A stretch of 37,807 nucleotides of DNA, taken from positions 1 through 37,807 of IMG/VR virus record IMGVR_UViG_3300035015_000002; one strand, written 5' to 3'. A model generated the notes under the pieces. The model saw only the letters and a list, made by a program, of their open reading frames with translations. It was not told the origin of the DNA and did no database searches. A program made the translations under genes and the position numbers. Within the stretch, counting starts at the first letter, position 1. The number at the start of each line of letters is the position of its first letter. The DNA is from a virus. This document shows positions 6,437 to 37,807 of this stretch, piece after piece.

Positions 6437-7335
6437 ACGTGATCGATCAGAAGATTGGCGAGCGCTTTGCCGCCTATAACGCGGACACAGTTGAGTTTTC
6501 CGCGACCATGCCGAGCGAGAGCATCGGGCTGTCCGTCTACTCCCCTCCGTTCTCTCAGCTTTACGTTTACAGCGAGAGCGACCGCGATATGGGCAACGTC
6601 GCGGATCATGACGAGTTTGCCGAGCGCTATCGGTTCCTTGTCCGAGAGCTACTGCGCGTCACCAAGCCGGGTCGCATCAGCGCGGTCCATTGCTCCGATC
6701 TGCCGACATCAAAGCAACGGGATGGCGTTATCGGCCTGTTCGATCTTCCCGCACTGATCCGTCAGGTCCACGAGGATGAGGGGTGGATCTATCACTCCCG
6801 CGTCACGATCTGGAAATGCCCGGTCGTGGAGATGACGCGGACCAAAGCCCACGGGCTGCTCTACAAGACGCTCCGCACGGATGGCTCCCGCGTCCGTGTC
6901 GGAATGCCCGACTATCTCATGGTTTTCCGTAAGAAGAGCGACGGCAAGACGCCGGAGCCGGTAACACACGACCCAGGCGTTTACCCGGTCTCATGGTGGC
7001 AGGAAGCCGCATCCCCGGTGTGGAGTACGATTGACCAGACGGACGTTCTCAACGTCGCCGTTGCCAGAGACGAAAAGGACGAGCGCCATCTTTGCCCGCT
7101 GCAACTCGATGTGATCGAGCGGTGCGTGCATCTGTGGAGCAATCCGAACGATGTCGTTTTCTCACCGTTCATGGGGATCGGTTCGGAGGGATACATTTCC
7201 CTTAAGCATGGACGGCGGTTCATCGGGACTGAGTTAAAGCCAGCCTATTTCCGGCAGGCGGTGCGCAATCTTAACTTGGCAGAGAGCGAGGGCGTTTCGG
7301 GTGATCTGGTGTCGCGGATGGTGGCGGCAGAATGA
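6433..7335 (+). CDS. DNA N6/N4 methyltransferase
   Basis: A 300-residue methyltransferase of the N6_N4_Mtase type. The catalytic motif IV is SPPF at residues 37-40, near the N-terminus, and the SAM-binding motif I is FSPFMGIGSEG at about 243-253, near the C-terminus. This is the beta-class order, with the target-recognition region between. ERHLCPLQLDVIERC (about 217-231) just before motif I is also typical. SPPF usually indicates adenine-N6 or cytosine-N4 methylation; the base cannot be decided here. ATG 6433 overlaps the helicase stop, so the upstream in-frame GTG (6421) is not needed. No endonuclease partner is present. Confidence 0.87.
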   Translation: MNVIDQKIGERFAAYNADTVEFSATMPSESIGLSVYSPPFSQLYVYSESDRDMGNVADHDEFAERYRFLVRELLRVTKPGRISAVHCSDLPTSKQRDGVIGLFDLPALIRQVHEDEGWIYHSRVTIWKCPVVEMTRTKAHGLLYKTLRTDGSRVRVGMPDYLMVFRKKSDGKTPEPVTHDPGVYPVSWWQEAASPVWSTIDQTDVLNVAVARDEKDERHLCPLQLDVIERCVHLWSNPNDVVFSPFMGIGSEGYISLKHGRRFIGTELKPAYFRQAVRNLNLAESEGVSGDLVSRMVAAE

Positions 7336-7733
7336 CCCTCGTTCGCGCGCCCATCGGCAGCCTCCTCAAGTCCGTCGACAAGGCCCGCAAGCCCGTCAAG
7401 GCTCGGGCCAAGGATGACGACCATCTGGCCTTCCTCCGCACGCTCCCTTGCGTCGTCACCGGCTCCAGCCCGGTAGAGGCCGCGCACATCCGGTATGGCT
7501 CGAAAATATGGGGCAAGCCGATCAGCGGCATCGGCACGAAGCCAGACGATCGGTGGTGCCTCCCCCTCAGCCCGGACAAGCACCGTGAGCAGCACAGCGG
7601 CTCTGAGGCGGCGTTCTGGAAAGCCCACGGCATTGAGCCGCTCGTGACCGCCGCCCGCCTTTACGAGGCTTCTGGCGACCACGCAACCGCATTGAAAATC
7701 ATCCGTGACGCACAAGCAGCGAGGACGAAATGA
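7332..7733 (+). CDS. DUF968/Ref-like HNH nuclease
   Basis: A 133-residue protein with the metal-binding layout of DUF968/Ref nucleases: LRTLPCVVTGSSPVEAAHIR (about 34-53), GIGTKPDDRWCLPLSPDKH, then REQHSGSEAAFW. Histidines in AAHIR, DKH and EQH are the expected HNH-type ligands and catalytic base. Phage P1 Ref is a RecA-dependent nuclease that cuts displacement loops. Here it follows the methyltransferase by ATGA and lies in the recombination block, consistent with such a role. Confidence 0.8.
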   Translation: MTLVRAPIGSLLKSVDKARKPVKARAKDDDHLAFLRTLPCVVTGSSPVEAAHIRYGSKIWGKPISGIGTKPDDRWCLPLSPDKHREQHSGSEAAFWKAHGIEPLVTAARLYEASGDHATALKIIRDAQAARTK

Positions 7734-8458
7734 ACGCCGGTGAACGAATTTTGCAGATGCTTCAAAACGGTGTCTCGAATGCAGACATCATGCGCAAGTT
7801 ACACGTCGGGAAGGACCGCATTCAGCACGTCAGGCGTGATCATGGCCTCGTCGGTATGCAGGCCAAGAAGCTCGCCTGCGGGAACACTGCCCCGGAAGCT
7901 GGCCCCTATCTCCCCGATATTGATGTCACCATAGAGGGCGACCCGCTTGGTGATGCCTTGGCCGCTGCCGGGTATCAACGGGCTGTCGCTGGTCCGTGGT
8001 CGGCATTGCCCGTCCGTCAGAAGCTCCTTCAGTCCAAGCGGAAAGATGCGTCTCACGACCCGATGCACTATCCAAAGCCGATAGGCCCAGCAAATCTGCG
8101 GATTGATCTGAGGTTGGTTTGTGATGGCCAGGTTATCCTAAACCGCACTCGCGGCCCGCGTACCATCATGATTGCGGTTGCCGAAGAACACGGCTTGACC
8201 GTTGAGGACATGCTTTCTTCGGCACGAATGGCCGGGCATGTCAAGGCGCGGGCGGTCTGCGCTCACCGTCTCCACAAGAGCGGGAAGTCGCTGCCACAGG
8301 TCGGGGAATTGATGGGTGGCAGAGACCACACCACAATCATGTATTTGATCCATACATACGATGAAAACGGAGTGCATTGCGGCTCTTATCGGCGTTCAGC
8401 GCCATCTGGCCAATCCCCCTCAAGGAACTCGGCAGGGTCGGGAGCGGTTCCATCATGA
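7730..8458 (+). CDS. Protein with DnaA domain IV (DnaA-box-binding-like)
   Basis: A 242-residue protein. The N-terminus (ERILQMLQNGVSNADIMRKL, 5-24) is a probable helix-turn-helix. Residues about 145-210 match the DNA-binding domain IV of DnaA: IAVAEEHGLTVEDMLSSAR, then VKARAVCAHRL, and the signature GGRDHTTI at 196-203. The ATPase domain III of real DnaA is absent. Expected role: recognition of DnaA-box-like sites, either to bring replication factors to the phage origin or to compete with host DnaA. The last 30 residues are low complexity. ATGA links with both neighbours. Confidence 0.82.
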   Translation: MNAGERILQMLQNGVSNADIMRKLHVGKDRIQHVRRDHGLVGMQAKKLACGNTAPEAGPYLPDIDVTIEGDPLGDALAAAGYQRAVAGPWSALPVRQKLLQSKRKDASHDPMHYPKPIGPANLRIDLRLVCDGQVILNRTRGPRTIMIAVAEEHGLTVEDMLSSARMAGHVKARAVCAHRLHKSGKSLPQVGELMGGRDHTTIMYLIHTYDENGVHCGSYRRSAPSGQSPSRNSAGSGAVPS

Positions 8459-27848: not shown

Positions 27849-29092
27849 TGGCTCTAGAAACCGTCATCGTTGAAATTGTCGAACAGGGCGTTCAGGGGCC
27901 ATCCGTCTCCGATGGGGATAAAGGCGACGTTACTGTTTCCGGTAGCGGGTCTGTCTGGACTATCGATAGCGGCGTCATCACCGACGCCAAGGTCAACGCC
28001 TCCGCAGCGATTGCAGGGACGAAGCTGGCCAACACCCCATCCGGCAATATCGCCGCGACGACGGTTCAAGCTGCGATAAACGAGTTGGACACGGAGAAGG
28101 TCGCCAAGGCTGGCGACACGATGACGGGGGCGCTAAATGTCAATCTATCAGGAGGAAGCACCTACCCTGCAATACTGACGGGCTCTGGAGCGCGCCTTAT
28201 CGGGTCTTTGTCTGCCTCCTGCAATTTTGAGATAATGACCACCTTTGGCACCCCCACTATGACCTTCCGCCAGCAGGGGGGGACATGGGCGTCCCCGACA
28301 GCAATCGCCTCCAGCCAAAACATCGGAAATTTTCAGGTCATGGGGCATGACGGCACGTCCGCCGGAACGGCGGCGCGCGGGTCATTTCGTTTCCAAGGTG
28401 CCGAAGGCTGGACACCATCAGCGCAAGGTACACGGGCTGACGTACGCGTAACGCCCATTGGCTCGACCGTACTTACCACTCGACTTTCAATCGAGAATAA
28501 CGGCGACACAACCCCCGGCGTCGACAACACCCAAGCCCTCGGCACCGCGTCGCTTCGGTGGAACTCGCTGCGGGTTGGTACGGCTACAAGTCAGTTCGAC
28601 GGTGATTTGACTGTCGGCGCTGGCACCGGCACTAAGGTGCTTCGTATCAACGGCGGCGTTTCTGGCGCTAATGATGGCGCGGCGATCTACTTCCAGAATG
28701 GCGGTATCTCGTTCAACGCCATGGGTAACACCTCAGCCATTCTCGGCGCTGGGTATGACACCAGCTTCATGATCTACACTGGCGGCGGTGGGATCGCGAA
28801 GTTCTTCGGCGGCACGTTCCGCCCCAACACCGACTTGCAGGCCGATCTCGGCACCGCTTCATTCCGCTGGAACAGCCTTCGGGTTGGCACGGGCGGCGCG
28901 CAGATCGACGGCAATGTGATCGTTGACGGCTACGTAAAGCCCAAATCCTACACGGTCGGCACCGTGCCAAGCGCGGCGTCGTCTGGTGCTGGTGCGCAAA
29001 TCTACATCAGCAACGAGAGCGGAGGGGCTGTCATCGCTTTCTCCGATGGCACCGATTGGCGTCGTGTCACTGACCGCGCCATCATCTCCTAA
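27848..29092 (+). CDS. Tail fibre with internal duplication
   Basis: A 414-residue protein. The N-terminus VIVEIVEQGVQGP matches the start of the fibre at 26101, suggesting a common anchoring motif. Two segments, LGTASLRWNSLRVGT (about 233) and LGTASFRWNSLRVGT (about 337), are near copies in a 100-residue repeat. AAINELDTEKVAKAGDTMTG then AL is the widespread fibre-stalk motif. The end (SGAGAQIYISNESGGAVIAF, then SDGTDWRRV) is a common fibre tip. Likely the receptor-binding fibre. Confidence 0.8.
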   Translation: MALETVIVEIVEQGVQGPSVSDGDKGDVTVSGSGSVWTIDSGVITDAKVNASAAIAGTKLANTPSGNIAATTVQAAINELDTEKVAKAGDTMTGALNVNLSGGSTYPAILTGSGARLIGSLSASCNFEIMTTFGTPTMTFRQQGGTWASPTAIASSQNIGNFQVMGHDGTSAGTAARGSFRFQGAEGWTPSAQGTRADVRVTPIGSTVLTTRLSIENNGDTTPGVDNTQALGTASLRWNSLRVGTATSQFDGDLTVGAGTGTKVLRINGGVSGANDGAAIYFQNGGISFNAMGNTSAILGAGYDTSFMIYTGGGGIAKFFGGTFRPNTDLQADLGTASFRWNSLRVGTGGAQIDGNVIVDGYVKPKSYTVGTVPSAASSGAGAQIYISNESGGAVIAFSDGTDWRRVTDRAIIS

Positions 29093-29104
29093 AGCGAGGC
29101 TACC

Positions 29105-29689
29105 ATGACAACATATGCCTATGAAGTGATGCTTCGTGGTACTCCTGACCGTGGCCTGAAGGTCGCGGGCTGCCATCTCGTTGAAAGCGTGGTGGTGAAC
29201 GGGAAAGACTACCCTGGCGATCCGATGCCGATCAATTACGCAGACCTCAAAGACCTGTTGCCAGAATGGTTTTCTGGCATGGCCGGTCAAGTGGCTGCGG
29301 CGGAAGCGGCGCGCGACGCGGCGTTGGCTGAAGTGGAGGCCGCGAACAGTGACCGCGACGAGAAAGTCGCCGCAGCCGAACAGGCCGCAGCCGCGCACGC
29401 AGAGGCCATCGCCGCGCTTCAGGCCCGCATTGACGAACTGACGGCGACCCCTCCCCCGCCACCAGTGGACGAGGTCCACATTGCCTACGTGAAGCAGGCG
29501 CTTGATGAGGCTGGCAAGCTGGATGCCGTTGACGCCGCTGCGGACGCCGCTGGCAAAGGCGCGCTTTGGCGCTTCGCGACATCCATCACCGGAACCGAAC
29601 CGGACGTGATGGCTATCGCTCAAGCGCTCGGTATCGACCTCGATGCCATCCTGACCGCAGCCCGCACCATCCGCGCATCGCGCGGCTGA
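29105..29689 (+). CDS. Coiled-coil tail-region protein
   Basis: A 194-residue protein after the fibre gene with GAGG before ATG 29105. Residues 1-55 form a globular start (YAYEVMLRGTPDRGL), and residues 58-112 are an Ala/Glu-rich coiled coil (QVAAAEAARDAALAEVEAAN). A PPPPP break is followed by a helical C-terminal domain (VKQALDEAGKLDAVDAAADA). It may be a fibre chaperone or a minor tail protein; no family recognised. Confidence 0.66.
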   Translation: MTTYAYEVMLRGTPDRGLKVAGCHLVESVVVNGKDYPGDPMPINYADLKDLLPEWFSGMAGQVAAAEAARDAALAEVEAANSDRDEKVAAAEQAAAAHAEAIAALQARIDELTATPPPPPVDEVHIAYVKQALDEAGKLDAVDAAADAAGKGALWRFATSITGTEPDVMAIAQALGIDLDAILTAARTIRASRG

Positions 29690-29808
29690 TGTCCCCGACA
29701 GACCTCCCGCCCGCTGCGGTCATCGCAGTGGGCTTTTTCGTGTTCGCGGCCCTCGGCTTTTTCACCTTCGACACCATCCGACAAATCCACAGAAGGGAAC
29801 GGCCATGA
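29689..29808 (+). CDS. Small single-span membrane protein, holin candidate
   Basis: A 39-residue protein in a TGATG junction with the previous gene. One membrane span (AAVIAVGFFVFAALGFFTF, residues 9-27) is followed by a charged tail (RQIHRRERP). Being directly upstream of the endolysin with ATGA overlap, it is a candidate holin or pinholin. One span is unusual for a canonical holin but known for some. Another one-span protein in the block (31507-31842) is an alternative. Confidence 0.62.
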   Translation: MSPTDLPPAAVIAVGFFVFAALGFFTFDTIRQIHRRERP

Positions 29809-30569
29809 ACCGCCGCATCTTCTTGAATTACGTCCGCAACGCTCCCTTTGGCGGTCGGCTTGTTCACGCTCAGATCGACGGGATCAACCGCATCCTTGAC
29901 GAATGGAAAGCGCGCGGTCTCTTGGATGACCGCTGGCTGGCCTACATGCTCGCGACGGTATTTTGGGAGACGGCCAAGACAATGCAGCCCGTTCGCGAGA
30001 TGGGCGGCGAGGCTTACCTTCGATCCAAGCGCTATTACCCGTGGGTCGGTGAGGGGCTGGTGCAAGTCACATGGGAGGCCAATCACCGGAAGTTTGGCGC
30101 GACAAAGCCCGGCGAGCTTCTGACGTGGCCCATCGCACTGAAGGCCATGTTTGACGGCATGACGCGCGGCATGTTCACCGGCAAGAGCCTCCGGGACTAT
30201 TTCAACGAGACGAGAAACGACCCGCGCGGCGCTCGCAAGATTATCAACGGGACCGACAAGGCCGATCTGATCGCGGGCTTTTACGCCTCGTTCCTGGCTG
30301 CCATCAAGGCCGCGAAGATGGAGGCAGACGACGTTGAGCCAGCCAAAGCGACAGAACGGAATGCTCAGCCTGACGACGTGAAGCCGACCGATAGCACCGC
30401 AGTCCTGACCGCTGGCGGTCTTCTCACGACCGGCGTTGCGGCCATCCCTGCCATCGGCGGGATTTCCTCCGCATGGGGCTTTGCCGCGCTCGCTCTCATC
30501 GTTGTCGCGGGTGGCATTGCCGCGTGGCTGGTCATGTCGGGTCGCGTGACGATCAACAGGGGCGCGTGA
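29805..30569 (+). CDS. Endolysin (chitinase/lysozyme-like) with C-terminal membrane anchor
   Basis: A 254-residue protein. The catalytic part (1-165) has AYMLATVFWETAKTMQPVRE (residues 46-65) with the presumed catalytic glutamate in WET, and the family signature GEGLVQVTWEANHRKFG (about 83-99, usually GRGxVQLT), as in GH19-like phage muramidases. A charged linker follows, then two hydrophobic stretches (LTAGGLLTTGVAAIPAIGG and FAALALIVVAGGIAAWLVM) at about 196-245. It would be tethered to the inner membrane, active domain outward or held until holin triggering. Most endolysins lack this anchor. Confidence 0.8.
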   Translation: MNRRIFLNYVRNAPFGGRLVHAQIDGINRILDEWKARGLLDDRWLAYMLATVFWETAKTMQPVREMGGEAYLRSKRYYPWVGEGLVQVTWEANHRKFGATKPGELLTWPIALKAMFDGMTRGMFTGKSLRDYFNETRNDPRGARKIINGTDKADLIAGFYASFLAAIKAAKMEADDVEPAKATERNAQPDDVKPTDSTAVLTAGGLLTTGVAAIPAIGGISSAWGFAALALIVVAGGIAAWLVMSGRVTINRGA

Positions 30570-30805
30570 TGTTCACACAGTTTCGTCTAATCGCCGCAGG
30601 AATAGCGGTGATTTCGCTCCTAGCCGCCGCAGGCGGGCTTTACCTGAAAGGACGTTCTGATGGCCGTGCTTTGGAACATGCCGAACAGCAAGCCCGCGAT
30701 CTGGCGGCATTGGACGCAGCCGAAAAGGCTAGGCGTGATCGGACTTTGCGCGACCTCACTGATCCTAACGGGATGCGGGACCGCGACCCTTTCCGGCGCG
30801 ACTGA
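30569..30805 (+). CDS. Rz: Rz-like inner-membrane spanin
   Basis: A 78-residue protein starting at ATG 30569. One N-terminal membrane span (FRLIAAGIAVISLLAAAGGL) is followed by a charged coiled coil (DGRALEHAEQQARDLAALDA then AEKARRDRTLRD). This is the i-spanin layout. It overlaps the Rz1 gene by 146 bp in a different frame, and both follow the endolysin, the standard gram-negative spanin arrangement. It should disrupt the outer membrane together with Rz1. Confidence 0.82.
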   Translation: MFTQFRLIAAGIAVISLLAAAGGLYLKGRSDGRALEHAEQQARDLAALDAAEKARRDRTLRDLTDPNGMRDRDPFRRD

Positions 30806-30920
30806 GTGTCGGGTATTTCAACGCATCACTTACTCGTCGCGCGACACGACGCAGACGCAGCGCGAAGTCCGGGGGCATAATGCAGCCGGTGTAGCCGCTT
30901 GCGGATGGAGGGCGCGGTGA
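30660..30920 (+). CDS. Rz1: Rz1-like outer-membrane lipoprotein spanin
   Basis: An 86-residue lipoprotein whose ATG 30660 (AAGGA nearby) lies inside the Rz gene, another frame. A signal sequence ends in the lipobox LTGC with cysteine 39 as lipidation site. The mature part has TECRVFQRITYSSRDTTQTQ then REVRGHNAAGVAACGW, the pattern of alphaproteobacterial phage Rz1 proteins (C-x-F-x-I-x-x-S-x-x-DT). It pairs with the inner-membrane spanin. Its stop overlaps the protease start (GTGA). Confidence 0.82.
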   Translation: MAVLWNMPNSKPAIWRHWTQPKRLGVIGLCATSLILTGCGTATLSGATECRVFQRITYSSRDTTQTQREVRGHNAAGVAACGWRAR

Positions 30921-31507
30921 GGGCGCTCCTGGCACTTGCCTTAGCGCTAACTCTCGCCGCTTGCGCTGGCCCATTCGACGCCCTCCGCTATTCCGTCAAG
31001 GTGGTCTCTGCCGCTGGCCACGGGTCAGGAACGGCAGTAGGTAGCGGCTTGATCCTGACAGCGGCGCACGTCGTCAAGGACGGCGAGACGGTCACGCTCA
31101 TCCGGTCGGACGGGTCGGAACTCAAAGCGGTGACGGTGTGGCGAGCGCCCGCCGAAGACGTGGCTATATTGCGGATAACAGACGGCACCATGCCGGAAGC
31201 CCGCATGTCGTGCGCTCTCCCCAAGCCCGGCGAGCCTATCGAGATTGTCGGCAATCCCGGCCCCTTAACCTTCATCACGTTGCGCGGCTTTGTGGCGTCC
31301 AGCGTCAATGTTCGCGGTCCTTGGAGGGTGGCGCATATCCTTGACGCGACTGCGATGGGCGGCGTGTCCGGCGGCGGCGTCTTCGACACTCGAGGGAGGC
31401 TGATCGGCATCTTGGTTGGTGCCTACGCTTCCGGCATCTCACCACAGTCCGGTATCTCCGTCATGGTTCCGGCTTCTGAAATCTGTTTGATGATGGGCCG
31501 CACGTAA
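30917..31507 (+). CDS. Trypsin-like serine protease lipoprotein
   Basis: A 196-residue exported protease. The start is GTG 30917 (GGAGGG just upstream, GTGA with Rz1). A signal peptide ends in LAAC with lipid cysteine 16. The S1/DegP-like catalytic triad is complete: H51 in LILTAAHVV, D81 in AEDVAILRI, S151 in GGVSGGGVF. No PDZ domain follows, so it is a protease domain alone, anchored to a membrane through lipid. It lies inside the lysis cassette between the spanins and further membrane proteins. It could cleave periplasmic or outer-membrane proteins during lysis (inference). Confidence 0.85.
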   Translation: MRALLALALALTLAACAGPFDALRYSVKVVSAAGHGSGTAVGSGLILTAAHVVKDGETVTLIRSDGSELKAVTVWRAPAEDVAILRITDGTMPEARMSCALPKPGEPIEIVGNPGPLTFITLRGFVASSVNVRGPWRVAHILDATAMGGVSGGGVFDTRGRLIGILVGAYASGISPQSGISVMVPASEICLMMGRT

Positions 31508-31842
31508 TGGACCCGACGACAAAACTCGTCACCTATACGATCGACCAAGCAGGAATAGAGCGCCTGATCGCAGCCGCTTCTCTTGCCGCCGCAAAGGAAG
31601 TCAAGGCCGAAGGCCCAAGCAAGACAGACATGGAAGCCATTGCCGAAGAAGCGTTGGCCCGATTTATGGACCGCTTAGGGATTGATGACATCCCGGCATT
31701 ACGAAAAGACCTCACAGCCATGCGCGCGGCTCGGGAGACAAAAGAGGCGCTTATCTCCCACGGACTTAAGGCGGTCCTGACCCTGCTTATCGGCGGCATC
31801 ATCACGGCCATTTGGCTTGCGCTCAAGGATACACGGGGATGA
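31507..31842 (+). CDS. C-terminally anchored membrane protein
   Basis: A 111-residue protein in a TAATG junction with the protease. The body is helical and charged (AKEVKAEGPSKTDMEAIAEE, DDIPALRKDLTAMRAARETK), and a single membrane span lies near the end (AVLTLLIGGIITAIWLAL, about 89-106). The tail-anchored layout is seen in phage proteins of lysis regions and may be a holin-like or antiholin-like protein. Family not recognised with confidence. Confidence 0.65.
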   Translation: MDPTTKLVTYTIDQAGIERLIAAASLAAAKEVKAEGPSKTDMEAIAEEALARFMDRLGIDDIPALRKDLTAMRAARETKEALISHGLKAVLTLLIGGIITAIWLALKDTRG

Positions 31843-32309
31843 GCGAGAGGATCGTCGCGGGGACTTTTGTCTGGCTTATTGCGGGATGTGTAAGTATGGC
31901 GTTTTTTATGTTCGCCGCGCCTGCTTTGGAGGCCAGACTAGCCCCTGTGCTGACAGACCAGCGCATCGTAATCGAAGCAGACGACCGAAAGCCCGGACGC
32001 ATGTGCTGGACGTGGCATTGGGTCAAGCGGCGATATGCCCAGCCCGTTGTCGTCACATGGTCGATTGCAATCGACAACACTGCCGTTGCAATCCCGGTGG
32101 TTGCCGAGCGCGAGGCAGACGGGTTCGCCTTGCGCACTCCAGCGACACACTCCCCAGGGGCAGGGCGCAACGACTTGTGCGTCAAGATACCGGATCACTT
32201 GGACAAGTCGCCGGGGATGACCATCAAGGGGAGCATCAATTACCGCACGTCTCATGGTCTTTGGACGGTCTGGCAGGACATGCCGACAGTCAAAGTTCCG
32301 CCGCTCTAA
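31839..32309 (+). CDS. Membrane-anchored or exported hypothetical protein
   Basis: A 156-residue protein starting at ATG 31839 (ATGA). An N-terminal hydrophobic span (VAGTFVWLIAGCVSMAFFMF) acts as an anchor or uncleaved signal. The rest looks like a beta-sandwich with paired cysteines and tryptophans (RMCWTWHWVKRRYAQPVVVT, NDLCVKIP, HGLWTVWQDMP). It is probably periplasmic. Function unknown; the lysis-region location suggests an envelope role. Confidence 0.66.
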   Translation: MSERIVAGTFVWLIAGCVSMAFFMFAAPALEARLAPVLTDQRIVIEADDRKPGRMCWTWHWVKRRYAQPVVVTWSIAIDNTAVAIPVVAEREADGFALRTPATHSPGAGRNDLCVKIPDHLDKSPGMTIKGSINYRTSHGLWTVWQDMPTVKVPPL

Positions 32310-32313
32310 TCGC

Positions 32314-33531
32314 ATGTCACACCCTCCGCTGCCTCGCGAGATGGCGCAAGAGGCGCTTGACGCCTTCCGCGCCTATGGGTCTCAGCAGAAAGCCGCAGAC
32401 GCCCTCGGCATCCCCAGGCCGACATTGCAGGCCCGCCTAGCCAAGGCGTCCCTATATGGGATGGACGGGACAGGCCCGGTTCTGAACGGCTTCGAAATCT
32501 CGTCTATCTCCACACAGCGCGGCCCGGACGGCGAGACGCAACGTGAGTGGGTGAAACAGAAGCCAGAAGCTGGCGGCACGTTTGAAGTCCCGGCTGGCCA
32601 CGTCGTCAAGGGCGTCTCTGCCTTGGTCGGCGCGGATGGGCGAACGGTTCAGCAGTGGGTTAAGACGAAGGAAGGCGATCTAGGCCCGGAAGCGTGGGCC
32701 GATATCATCAAGGCCGCTCTAGCCGATTTCCAGCATCACAGGCAGGCGCAAGAGCCTCCCCCGTCCGATGACAGCCTGGCGGTCTTCCTGCCAGTCAGTG
32801 ATGCACATTTTGGCCTATATGCCCACGGCCCGGAAGCTGGCGAAGATTATGACCTCGGCATCGCAGATCGTACCAATCGCGATACGTTCGCGCGCCTGAT
32901 TGACGCGACACCGGCAAGCGGTCATGCCGTGATTGTCGGACTGGGCGACCTTCTCCACGCCGACAATCCTTCAAACCAGACAACCAATTCCGGTCACGCT
33001 TTGGATGTGGACACGCGCCATTCCAAGGTGCGCAAAACCGCTGTCATGTACATGATTTTCTGCACTGAAAAGGCTTTGGAGCGGCACGCCAAGGTGACGG
33101 TGCGCGTCCTTCCTGGCAACCATGATGAAGTAACGGCGGGCGCTATCGCCTTGGCTCTTTGGGCTTGGTTCCGCAACGACGACCGCGTGACGGTTGATAT
33201 CGACCCGTCTCGCTTCTGGTGGTGGCGGTTCGGTGCAAACCTTCTAGGCGCGACCCATGGCGACCAGGCCAAGATGCAAGCGCTGCCTATGCTGATGGCG
33301 GCAACCCGACCGAAGGATTGGGGAGAGACGCGGCACAGGTTCATTGCCTGCGGTCACATTCACACGAAGACGGCTCTGGAGATCGGCGGCGTGATTGTTG
33401 AGAGCTTCCAGTCCACAGCGGCTAGAGACGCATGGCACGCGGGCATGGGCTACAAGGCCGGGCGGTCCATGCAAGCCATCGTGTTGCACGAAGAGCGCGG
33501 CGAGATTGGTCGGCATCGGGTGGTCATATGA
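32314..33531 (+). CDS. HTH-linked calcineurin-like metallophosphoesterase
   Basis: A 405-residue protein. Residues 10-48 contain a helix-turn-helix (SQQKAADALGIPRPTLQARL). After a beta linker comes a metallophosphoesterase domain with all metal motifs: D163xH165 (VSDAHFG), GD at 211-212 (GLGDLLHAD), GNHDE at 268-272, HGD at 315-317 and GHIH at 347-350. Enzymes of this fold cleave phosphodiester or phosphomonoester bonds; with a DNA-binding-like domain a nucleic-acid substrate is likely but unproven. It sits at the end of the late operon, away from the replication genes. The start at 32314 fits the conserved beginning. Confidence 0.83.
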   Translation: MSHPPLPREMAQEALDAFRAYGSQQKAADALGIPRPTLQARLAKASLYGMDGTGPVLNGFEISSISTQRGPDGETQREWVKQKPEAGGTFEVPAGHVVKGVSALVGADGRTVQQWVKTKEGDLGPEAWADIIKAALADFQHHRQAQEPPPSDDSLAVFLPVSDAHFGLYAHGPEAGEDYDLGIADRTNRDTFARLIDATPASGHAVIVGLGDLLHADNPSNQTTNSGHALDVDTRHSKVRKTAVMYMIFCTEKALERHAKVTVRVLPGNHDEVTAGAIALALWAWFRNDDRVTVDIDPSRFWWWRFGANLLGATHGDQAKMQALPMLMAATRPKDWGETRHRFIACGHIHTKTALEIGGVIVESFQSTAARDAWHAGMGYKAGRSMQAIVLHEERGEIGRHRVVI

Positions 33532-33752
33532 AACCCCGCGTCAACGGCATCTTTCGCTATGTCCGGCACTCAGACGCCGAAGCCTATGCGCAGCGCGGAT
33601 GGATGTTTCTTCGCGACCTCGGACCCACGCACGGTGAGTATTCCGCCCTCTGGTGGCATTGTGGCTGCGTCCCTCAGAACGATGCGCCTCGTGGAACGGT
33701 TCGCGTTATGGTCGCTAATAGACCTGGACAAGCCGTTATGGTCCACGCATGA
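33528..33752 (+). CDS. Small hypothetical protein
   Basis: A 74-residue protein in an ATGA junction with the phosphoesterase. Pattern: MKPRVNGIFRYVRHSDAEAY, then AQRGWMFLRDLGPTHGEYSA and LWWHCGC. It is basic and rich in aromatics, perhaps a small DNA- or protein-binding fold. Other frames in this stretch are shadows. No family recognised. Confidence 0.62.
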   Translation: MKPRVNGIFRYVRHSDAEAYAQRGWMFLRDLGPTHGEYSALWWHCGCVPQNDAPRGTVRVMVANRPGQAVMVHA

Positions 33753-33946
33753 AGCAGGAGCTATCCCTGCTGGTGGCGTTCGTAGACCACGAAACGGGCT
33801 TGATCGGGATCAATGTCATTCTAGACGGCAATCAGGAGACGCGGCTTGTCGCGTCCCCACAGGTCGTTGCATCGGCCATCCGCCACCTTGCCGAGGCGCT
33901 GGCACGGAAGGCGGGGGCTGTTCCCGCTCGGGATCATTTGGGCTGA
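33749..33946 (+). CDS. Small hypothetical protein, last rightward gene
   Basis: A 65-residue protein, coupled by ATGA to the previous gene: two beta strands (LLVAFVDHETGLIGINVILD) and a helix (SPQVVASAIRHLAEALARKA). The last gene before the attachment region; no terminator is visible after it. Its end contains the first copy of a 16-bp dyad-containing repeat (33919-33934). Unknown function. Confidence 0.58.
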   Translation: MKQELSLLVAFVDHETGLIGINVILDGNQETRLVASPQVVASAIRHLAEALARKAGAVPARDHLG

Positions 33947-33984
33947 TTATCGCATAAATGCAATGGAATGTTCCCGCTCGGGAT
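33919..33984. repeat. Two 16-bp repeats with dyad, 50 bp apart
   Basis: TGTTCCCGCTCGGGAT occurs at 33919-33934 and 33969-33984. Each holds TCCCG-CT-CGGGA, a near-perfect palindrome. GTTCCCGCTC appears again at 34072-34081. They lie about 150-200 bp from the attachment core, in a place suited to excisionase or other accessory factor sites. The 50-bp spacing is close to five helical turns. Confidence 0.6.
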
Positions 33985-34040
33985 AACCCTTCCCAAGTAC
34001 TAGCGCGAGGATTGCGGTACGGGATGAACCGGGAACAGGC

Positions 34041-34277
34041 TCCCCCAGATTTCCCCCAGACGATGGCGCACGTTCCCGCTCCGTGCTGCCGATTGGTGCA
34101 CTACCGTCCCGCTGTAATCGCTTGGAATATGGTGGGCGCGACAGGGATTGAACCTGTGACCCCTCCCGTGTGAAGGGCTTGGTCATCTACTTTGAAACCA
34201 TCTTTATCCGTTTGAGAACTATATCATTTCCGCTGCTCGGCTGCACTGCGTTTCCACACTTCCCCCAGATTTCCCCC
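34041..34277. repeat. 17-bp direct repeats flanking the attachment core (arm-site-like)
   Basis: TCCCCCAGATTTCCCCC occurs at 34041-34057 and 34261-34277, one on each side of the tRNA-like core (34130-34177), 72 and 83 bp away. Each contains two CCCCC runs one helical turn apart. This is the geometry of arm-type integrase sites in lambda-like attP. The right copy lies in the 3' end of the integrase gene. Confidence 0.6.
34130..34177 (-). other. attP: attP core: 3' half of a tRNA-Val(CAC) gene
   Basis: On the minus strand this is the tRNA 3' half: anticodon loop TTCACAC (34174-34168; CAC anticodon), stem GGGAG, variable loop, T-arm ACAGGTTCAATCCCTGT, acceptor strand CGCGCCC, discriminator A and CCA at 34130. 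The 5' half is absent and the outer anticodon-stem bases on that side do not pair, so it is not a functional tRNA but the identity block used for integration. It lies 9 bp beyond the integrase stop. Insertion would restore the host tRNA. Confidence 0.85.
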
Positions 34278-37433: not shown

Positions 37434-37807
37434 CACGCGGCCTCCGACTGGATAGAAACGACCGACGCGGCGCGCTTCTCGATGAAGTCGAGGATGTCCG
37501 TCGTCTCGGTGGCCTTCGGTGTGTTCGGATAATTGGCGGCGACGTGCGAGTGGAACTCAGCAAGCGAGAACGTCCGGCAACCGGCGCGGATGATCAGGCC
37601 CTTGTCCGTAGCGTAGGCCAGGAACTCGTAGCCATCGGAGCGCATGGCGCGAGCGACCAGCGAGCGAACGGTGGCACCGTCGAGGTTGGCACCGGCGAGG
37701 TTGGCACCGGCAAGGTTGGCACCGGCGAGGTAGGCACCGTCGAGGTTGGCACCGGCAAGGTTGGCACCGGCGAGGTTGGCACCGGCGAGGTAGGCACCGG
37801 CAAGGTT
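37433..37807 (-). CDS. Pentapeptide-repeat protein, C-terminal part (same gene as 1-475)
   Basis: This is the end of the gene that begins at 475. Bases 37681-37807 repeat 1-127, so the real junction is 37680 to 1, in frame. After the pentapeptides comes a C-terminal domain of about 80 residues: [40 protein letters not shown] and a terminal helix ([14 protein letters not shown]). This cap, with I-x-AGCR-x-F-x-LAE, is common to phage pentapeptide proteins. ATG 37645 is internal, not a separate gene. Confidence 0.88.
37681..37807. repeat. 127-bp terminal redundancy (circular closure)
   Basis: Identical to bases 1-127. The length equals a common assembler k-mer, so this most likely reflects a circular assembly graph and not a biological terminal repeat. 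P22-type headful packaging gives circularly permuted DNA, which assembles this way. Because the overlap lies wholly in 15-bp repeats, closure is less certain than usual, although the reading frame through it is intact. Confidence 0.9.

Follow-up and report, generated by a model that had tools for sequence, protein, structure and literature searches.

A predicted exported HtrA-type serine protease encoded among the lysis genes of a virus

Gene order around the protease

The locus described here raises the question of what a serine protease does when its gene lies inside a phage lysis cassette. To our knowledge, the models of lysis in Gram-negative bacteria do not have a protease among their components. 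The window, that is, the whole stretch of 37,807 nucleotides of viral DNA that was analyzed, carries in this order genes for an endolysin, Rz and Rz1, the protease, an XhlA-like protein, a transmembrane (TM) protein, and an exonuclease:

29805 to 30569, plus strand: endolysin with a C-terminal hydrophobic tail (phrog_181, E 2e-25), related to phage GH19 chitinase-type endolysins
30569 to 30805, plus strand: Rz-like inner-membrane spanin (phrog_1026, a weak match, E 9e-4)
30660 to 30920, plus strand: Rz1-like lipoprotein spanin (phrog_1275, E 4e-10), in part inside the Rz gene in a different frame, its exact start uncertain
30907 to 30912, plus strand: GGAGGG, the likely ribosome-binding site of the protease gene, within the Rz1 coding sequence
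30917 to 31507, plus strand: protease gene, coding for an HtrA-type serine protease lipoprotein of 196 residues with predicted export (from sequence, profiles, and fold model)
31507 to 31842, plus strand: small protein with a C-terminal TM segment, weakly XhlA/'hemolysin'-like (phrog_6420)
31839 to 32309, plus strand: 156-residue protein with an N-terminal TM segment and a probable extracytoplasmic domain
32314 to 33531, plus strand: helix-turn-helix and metallophosphoesterase 'DNA repair exonuclease' (phrog_704, by PHROG profile)

The junctions overlap as TGATG between the endolysin and Rz genes, as GTGA between Rz1 and the protease, as TAATG between the protease and the XhlA-like gene, and as ATGA between the latter and the gene for the 156-residue TM protein, for which no relatives were found in the phage collection. 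A scan for sigma70-type promoters across positions 28,800-34,200 found none. Because of the overlapping joints and this result, the protease and the lysis genes are very probably made from one message. A terminator-like 11-bp stem followed by TTTTT is present at 29709-29733, just upstream of the endolysin gene and within an open reading frame for a 39-residue TM protein. Both ends of the record carry the same 15-bp tandem repeat (positions 1-344 and 37672-37807 of the window). Read on the minus strand, this repeat gives a repeated NLAGA-type pentapeptide. It is therefore probable that a pentapeptide-repeat-like gene spans the join, and the record may represent a near-complete genome that is circular or permuted.

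The protease sequence and its predicted export

Translated from the GTG at 30917, the gene at 30917-31507 gives VRALLALALALTLAAC and then continues with AGPF. The preliminary description of this locus had noted a triad of H51, D81, and S151 behind a lipobox and a GTGA coupling to Rz1, and the translation bears out both: H51 is in TAAHVV, D81 in AEDVAIL, and S151 in GGVSGGGVF, and the GTG overlaps the Rz1 stop codon TGA (30918-30920) to form the GTGA junction at 30917-30920. An alternative in-frame start is the ATG at 30905, and there too the signal peptide is retained. The N-terminus opens with a short n-region of positive charge, which is followed by a hydrophobic stretch and then by the lipobox LTLAAC (LAAC) ending in Cys16. 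This is the build of a bacterial lipoprotein, a signal peptide that closes with a lipobox cysteine, and the protein is thus predicted to be lipidated.

Family, fold, and predicted specificity

The Pfam model Trypsin_2 (PF13365) matches the protease with 74.2 bits (cut-off 27.6; E 2.4e-20), and residues 32-193 match the profile of PHROG 9683 ('protease') with an E-value of 9.7e-36, which makes it a member of this family; matches of this strength are far above what chance would give. An AlphaFold2 model made with an alignment of 47 relatives has a mean pLDDT of 94. By profile, by the chymotrypsin fold of the model, and by the conserved triad in the order His-Asp-Ser, the protein belongs to the Trypsin_2/PA clan. 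Foldseek and VIA-align showed that the model resembles the protease domains of DegP, DegQ, AlgW, and DegS at TM-scores of about 0.77-0.80, and the same four head the VIA-align fold list with Z of 23-26. DegP, DegQ, and DegS are of the HtrA family (MEROPS S1C) and have in common with the window protease the fold, the order of the triad, and the periplasmic location that its export signal implies. They have a PDZ domain, whereas in the window protease a C-terminal PDZ domain was looked for and is absent, the chain ending at residue 196 right behind the protease domain; the window protease, on the other hand, has a predicted lipid anchor and a family-specific cysteine pair. Its scores with the curated NCBIfam models for Do, DegS, and DegQ are far under the cut-offs (54.8 bits as against 416.2 for TIGR02037). 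Since a Deg-type fold comes here without a PDZ domain and with scores under the curated cut-offs, the modelled protease is HtrA-like in fold and yet not a canonical HtrA. The term 'trypsin-like', by which it had been described at first, is right for the fold but probably not for the specificity because T145, the residue six before S151 that forms the bottom of the S1 pocket, is Thr and not Asp. This makes specificity for Lys/Arg unlikely and suggests an HtrA-like specificity instead. The defence proteases in PADLOC (LmuA, RT-Protease_XI, and Avs1b) gave partial, fold-level matches to the peptidase domain only and did not amount to a whole system, and on these grounds a place for the protease in a defence system was rejected.

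Conservation of the family

Profile-guided IMG/VR scans yielded about 90 non-redundant relatives, and further ones came from GenBank phages. A scan of genome_contigs gave a sole match that was remote and cellular, in an Oligoflexales MAG. Through relatives of Rhizobium, Sinorhizobium, Ruegeria, and Sulfitobacter phages, the family appears from its sequences to be tied to alphaproteobacterial phages. Among its named members are p036 of Rhizobium phage 16-3, SUBG_00019 of Sulfitobacter phage pCB2047-C, and a protein of RHph_X2_25, which match the same profile and have the same triad as the window protease. They are often close to lysis genes with the phrog_704 exonuclease next, as in the window. 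Most members have a signal peptide or a TM anchor where the window copy has a lipobox, and the Sulfitobacter copy is remote from that of the window and is without the cysteine pair.

It had been held at the outset that a triad not conserved in homologues would speak against the proposal. In 94 aligned members His and Ser are invariant (94/94 each) and Asp is present in 90, the other four having Glu. These four are the phage 16-3 clade (L009, L085, L088, and L089), in which, unlike D81 of the window, the catalytic Asp is replaced by Glu and the genes are otherwise intact. One pattern of the smaller IMG/VR scan included the histidine; the patterns of the larger scan were without triad residues, and therefore the conservation found with it is not an effect of selection by the search. 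The cysteine pair, C99/C190 in the window protease, is kept in 88-89 of the 94, and essentially every member has a signal peptide, a TM anchor, or a lipobox at its N-terminus. The cysteines and the export signals fit an oxidizing extracytoplasmic compartment. Members with a lipobox are scattered over the protease tree, with at least eight changes by parsimony, at least three of them forced by well-supported branches; the window protease and that of its relative L108, both with a lipobox, form a supported pair. The gene is under purifying selection: among independent pairs, the 20 closest, all with dS under 0.9, had dN/dS values of 0.02-0.20. Judged by its sequence, the protease is a conserved and almost certainly working enzyme, and that an active exported serine protease is encoded alongside the lysis genes is well supported.

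Occurrence of the protease in related phages

The preliminary description had regarded this arrangement as outside any standard lysis model and had called for a survey of related prophages for the same order. The arrangement is not unprecedented and was already in GenBank because the Sulfitobacter phages pCB2047-A and -C and NYA-2014a carry an annotated 'protease' in the same slot, in a series of endolysin, small membrane genes, 'hemolysin', 'protease', and exonuclease. The nearest relative, L108, has endolysin, lipobox protease, and exonuclease in the order of the window. Upstream of the protease in many loci are Rz1 and endolysins of the GH24, GH19, and GH108 types, the GH24 and GH108 labels being taken from PHROG matches. 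The commonest downstream partner is the exonuclease, which was found at 80 loci among the protease relatives, nearly always downstream, and, by profile, in 37 of the 47 records so tested.

The same order is not the rule, as many relatives of the same layout are without the protease; L126 and L148, for example, have endolysin, Rz/Rz1, and exonuclease and no protease. When the exonuclease was used as the anchor, the protease was present in 22 of the 64 loci with enough sequence and a recognizable endolysin in 39. A scan anchored on the endolysin gave three loci only, two of them from near-identical relatives with the protease. An independent anchor was the gene for a holin-like protein with two TM segments, phrog_12264, which sits in the place of Rz/Rz1 (as in L108:6759-7166 and L201-L281) and gave 59 cassettes. 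The protease was found in 10 of these 59 loci, in 9/14 of those with the exonuclease as against 1/45 of those without it (p 1.4e-6, shared ancestry not being corrected for). Thus, the protease is an optional extra that sits between the lysis genes and the phrog_704 exonuclease. Some of the phages that carry it have spanins and others do not, and the endolysins that accompany it differ in their build. It is not tied to lysis cassettes everywhere, for in the Pootjesviridae (AF3 and phiM9) its gene is by itself, close to head genes and on the opposite strand. In rhizobial phages a distance of several kb sometimes separates it from the endolysin, and genes predicted on the reverse strand lie in this interval.

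Possible roles of the protease

The reading that we tentatively prefer is that of a late-made envelope protease, of the HtrA type without PDZ, that is accessory to lysis or to the release of virions. It would be translated late, together with the lysis proteins, would receive a lipid at Cys16, and would stay in the periplasm, where the Ala at +2 suggests, by the Lol rule of E. coli, a place at the outer membrane. At the end of infection it would cut exposed envelope proteins, and outer-membrane failure and virion release would become cleaner or faster, the protease not being needed for lysis. That close relatives with this gene order do without it marks it as an accessory. We count for this role the HtrA-type fold, the triad and the cysteine pair, the export features, the dN/dS values, the overlapping junctions with no sigma70-type promoter found in the scanned region, the endolysin upstream, and the shared gene order in L108; we count against it that the gene is optional, that its tightest link to a neighbor is with the exonuclease, that it is isolated in the Pootjesviridae, and that it is distant from the endolysin in rhizobial phages. 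As was suggested early on, it may ease outer-membrane failure or remove receptors. A bolder form, which we think rather doubtful, is that phages of this group have added to holin, endolysin, and spanin a further class of lysis protein, a dedicated envelope protease. This HtrA-type enzyme, anchored by a lipid or a peptide, would strip envelope proteins at lysis so that more virions are free.

Two other roles are the main rivals to one in release, the first being exclusion or the removal of receptors and the second quality control of the envelope. In the first, the protease would trim outer-membrane receptors or would inactivate, within the periplasm, the proteins of phages that enter, and would do so in the lysogen or ahead of lysis. 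That it is predicted to be exported, is optional, and has switched several times on the tree between a lipobox and other N-termini would suit such a role, as would its presence in temperate phages, its occurrence alone in large lytic phages, and its position apart from the lysis genes in some rhizobial phages. In the window, however, it is within an overlapping chain of lysis genes and no sigma70-type promoter of its own was found, and we consider receptor removal or superinfection exclusion unlikely. Somewhat less likely still is quality control, in which a small DegP/DegQ-like enzyme would remove misfolded phage membrane proteins during late expression. DegP, DegQ, and DegS are the closest relatives by fold and sequence, and T145 at the S1 position would fit the HtrA-like preference for small residues. 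But the protease domain is alone, and without PDZ the substrate capture and cage assembly of HtrA proteins are missing; this role also leaves the place among the lysis genes unexplained.

In 16-3-type rhizobial relatives (L036:6670-7140 and 7259-7825; L088, L085, L029, and others) MotA/ExbB-like and ExbD/MotB-like genes directly follow the protease. The former matches PF01618 with an E-value of 1e-4, under the Pfam cut-off, and its matches to ZorA are weak; the ExbD/MotB-like partner has a single TM segment with an invariant Asp at it. PDB profile searches with the MotA-like and MotB-like proteins gave no credible match and, therefore, the assignment as an ion-driven membrane motor pair rests on Pfam, PADLOC, and the conserved Asp. 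The protease might form with these adjoining membrane proteins, or with the TM proteins of the window, an envelope module for defence or counter-defence, for which the presence of the pair directly downstream in many rhizobial phages speaks. We regard this as improbable because neither the window nor most other lineages have the motor-like pair, and because the protease matches PADLOC entries only in part and at the level of the fold.

It had also been proposed that the protease activates the endolysin by cutting its linker, which would free a tail-anchored enzyme, and hydrophobic tails do close the endolysins of the window and of L108. Tails were not in excess with the protease, being found in 36/51 phages that have it and in 18/32 that lack it (Fisher p 0.24), and 15 of the former have endolysins without a recognized tail. 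With no association between the protease and tailed endolysins, the proposal lost its support, and such maturation of endolysin or holin is very improbable. In the endolysins themselves (window 29805-30569; L015, L018, L077, and others), a Pro-rich linker is often followed by a terminal element that is either a TM segment or a short cationic amphipathic helix.

The least probable role, far down the scale, is replacement of the spanins in disrupting the outer membrane. Like the protease, the Rz/Rz1 spanins include a lipoprotein whose gene closes the lysis cassette, but the protease folds as an enzyme with a catalytic triad and has no sequence relation to them. A first sample had Rz1-like lipoproteins in 23/24 cassettes without the protease and in 31/56 with it, an inverse relation with p from 3e-8 to 2e-4 depending on the threshold (3e-8 in the stricter version). 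However, Rz1 and the protease coexist in the window, so the one does not replace the other where present, and in 45 of the 59 cassettes anchored on phrog_12264 neither a recognizable Rz1-like lipoprotein nor the protease was found. Since most spanin-less cassettes are thus also without the protease, the anticorrelation is a product of sampling and spanin replacement was rejected. An essential spanin-like role is likewise not supported because so many relatives of the same layout do without the protease.

Relation to earlier work and significance

No paper discussing a PHROG 9683-type protease in lysis was found in a literature search, and in the accessible part of the AP-16-3 paper p036 is not discussed. 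Trypsin-like proteases are named in passing in T4-like alphaproteobacterial phages (PMC10783043). A Mu lysis protein has been speculated to be a protease, a possibility that the authors of the paper themselves dismiss in the event that a specific interaction does not exist (PMC9239132). In Caulobacter the trypsin-like peptidases LypA/LypC, of a multidomain CARD-NLR-like system, are essential for the release of the gene transfer agent (GTA) (PMC13236601). According to the accessible part of that paper, they resemble the window protease as serine peptidases whose activity is required for release of phage-like particles; they differ in being much larger and multidomain, some of their domains being of the ATPase or nuclease type; an export signal is not noted for them there, and the GTA system is without holin and endolysin. 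None of the three papers concerns a PHROG 9683-type protease.

The window protein is a newly recognized member of a known phage protease family whose sole annotation is 'protease', and within the literature that could be searched the function of this family has apparently never been asked about. An exported, conserved, and evidently functional protease that recurs beside the lysis genes of many temperate phages is a test case for envelope proteolysis in lysis, release, and exclusion.
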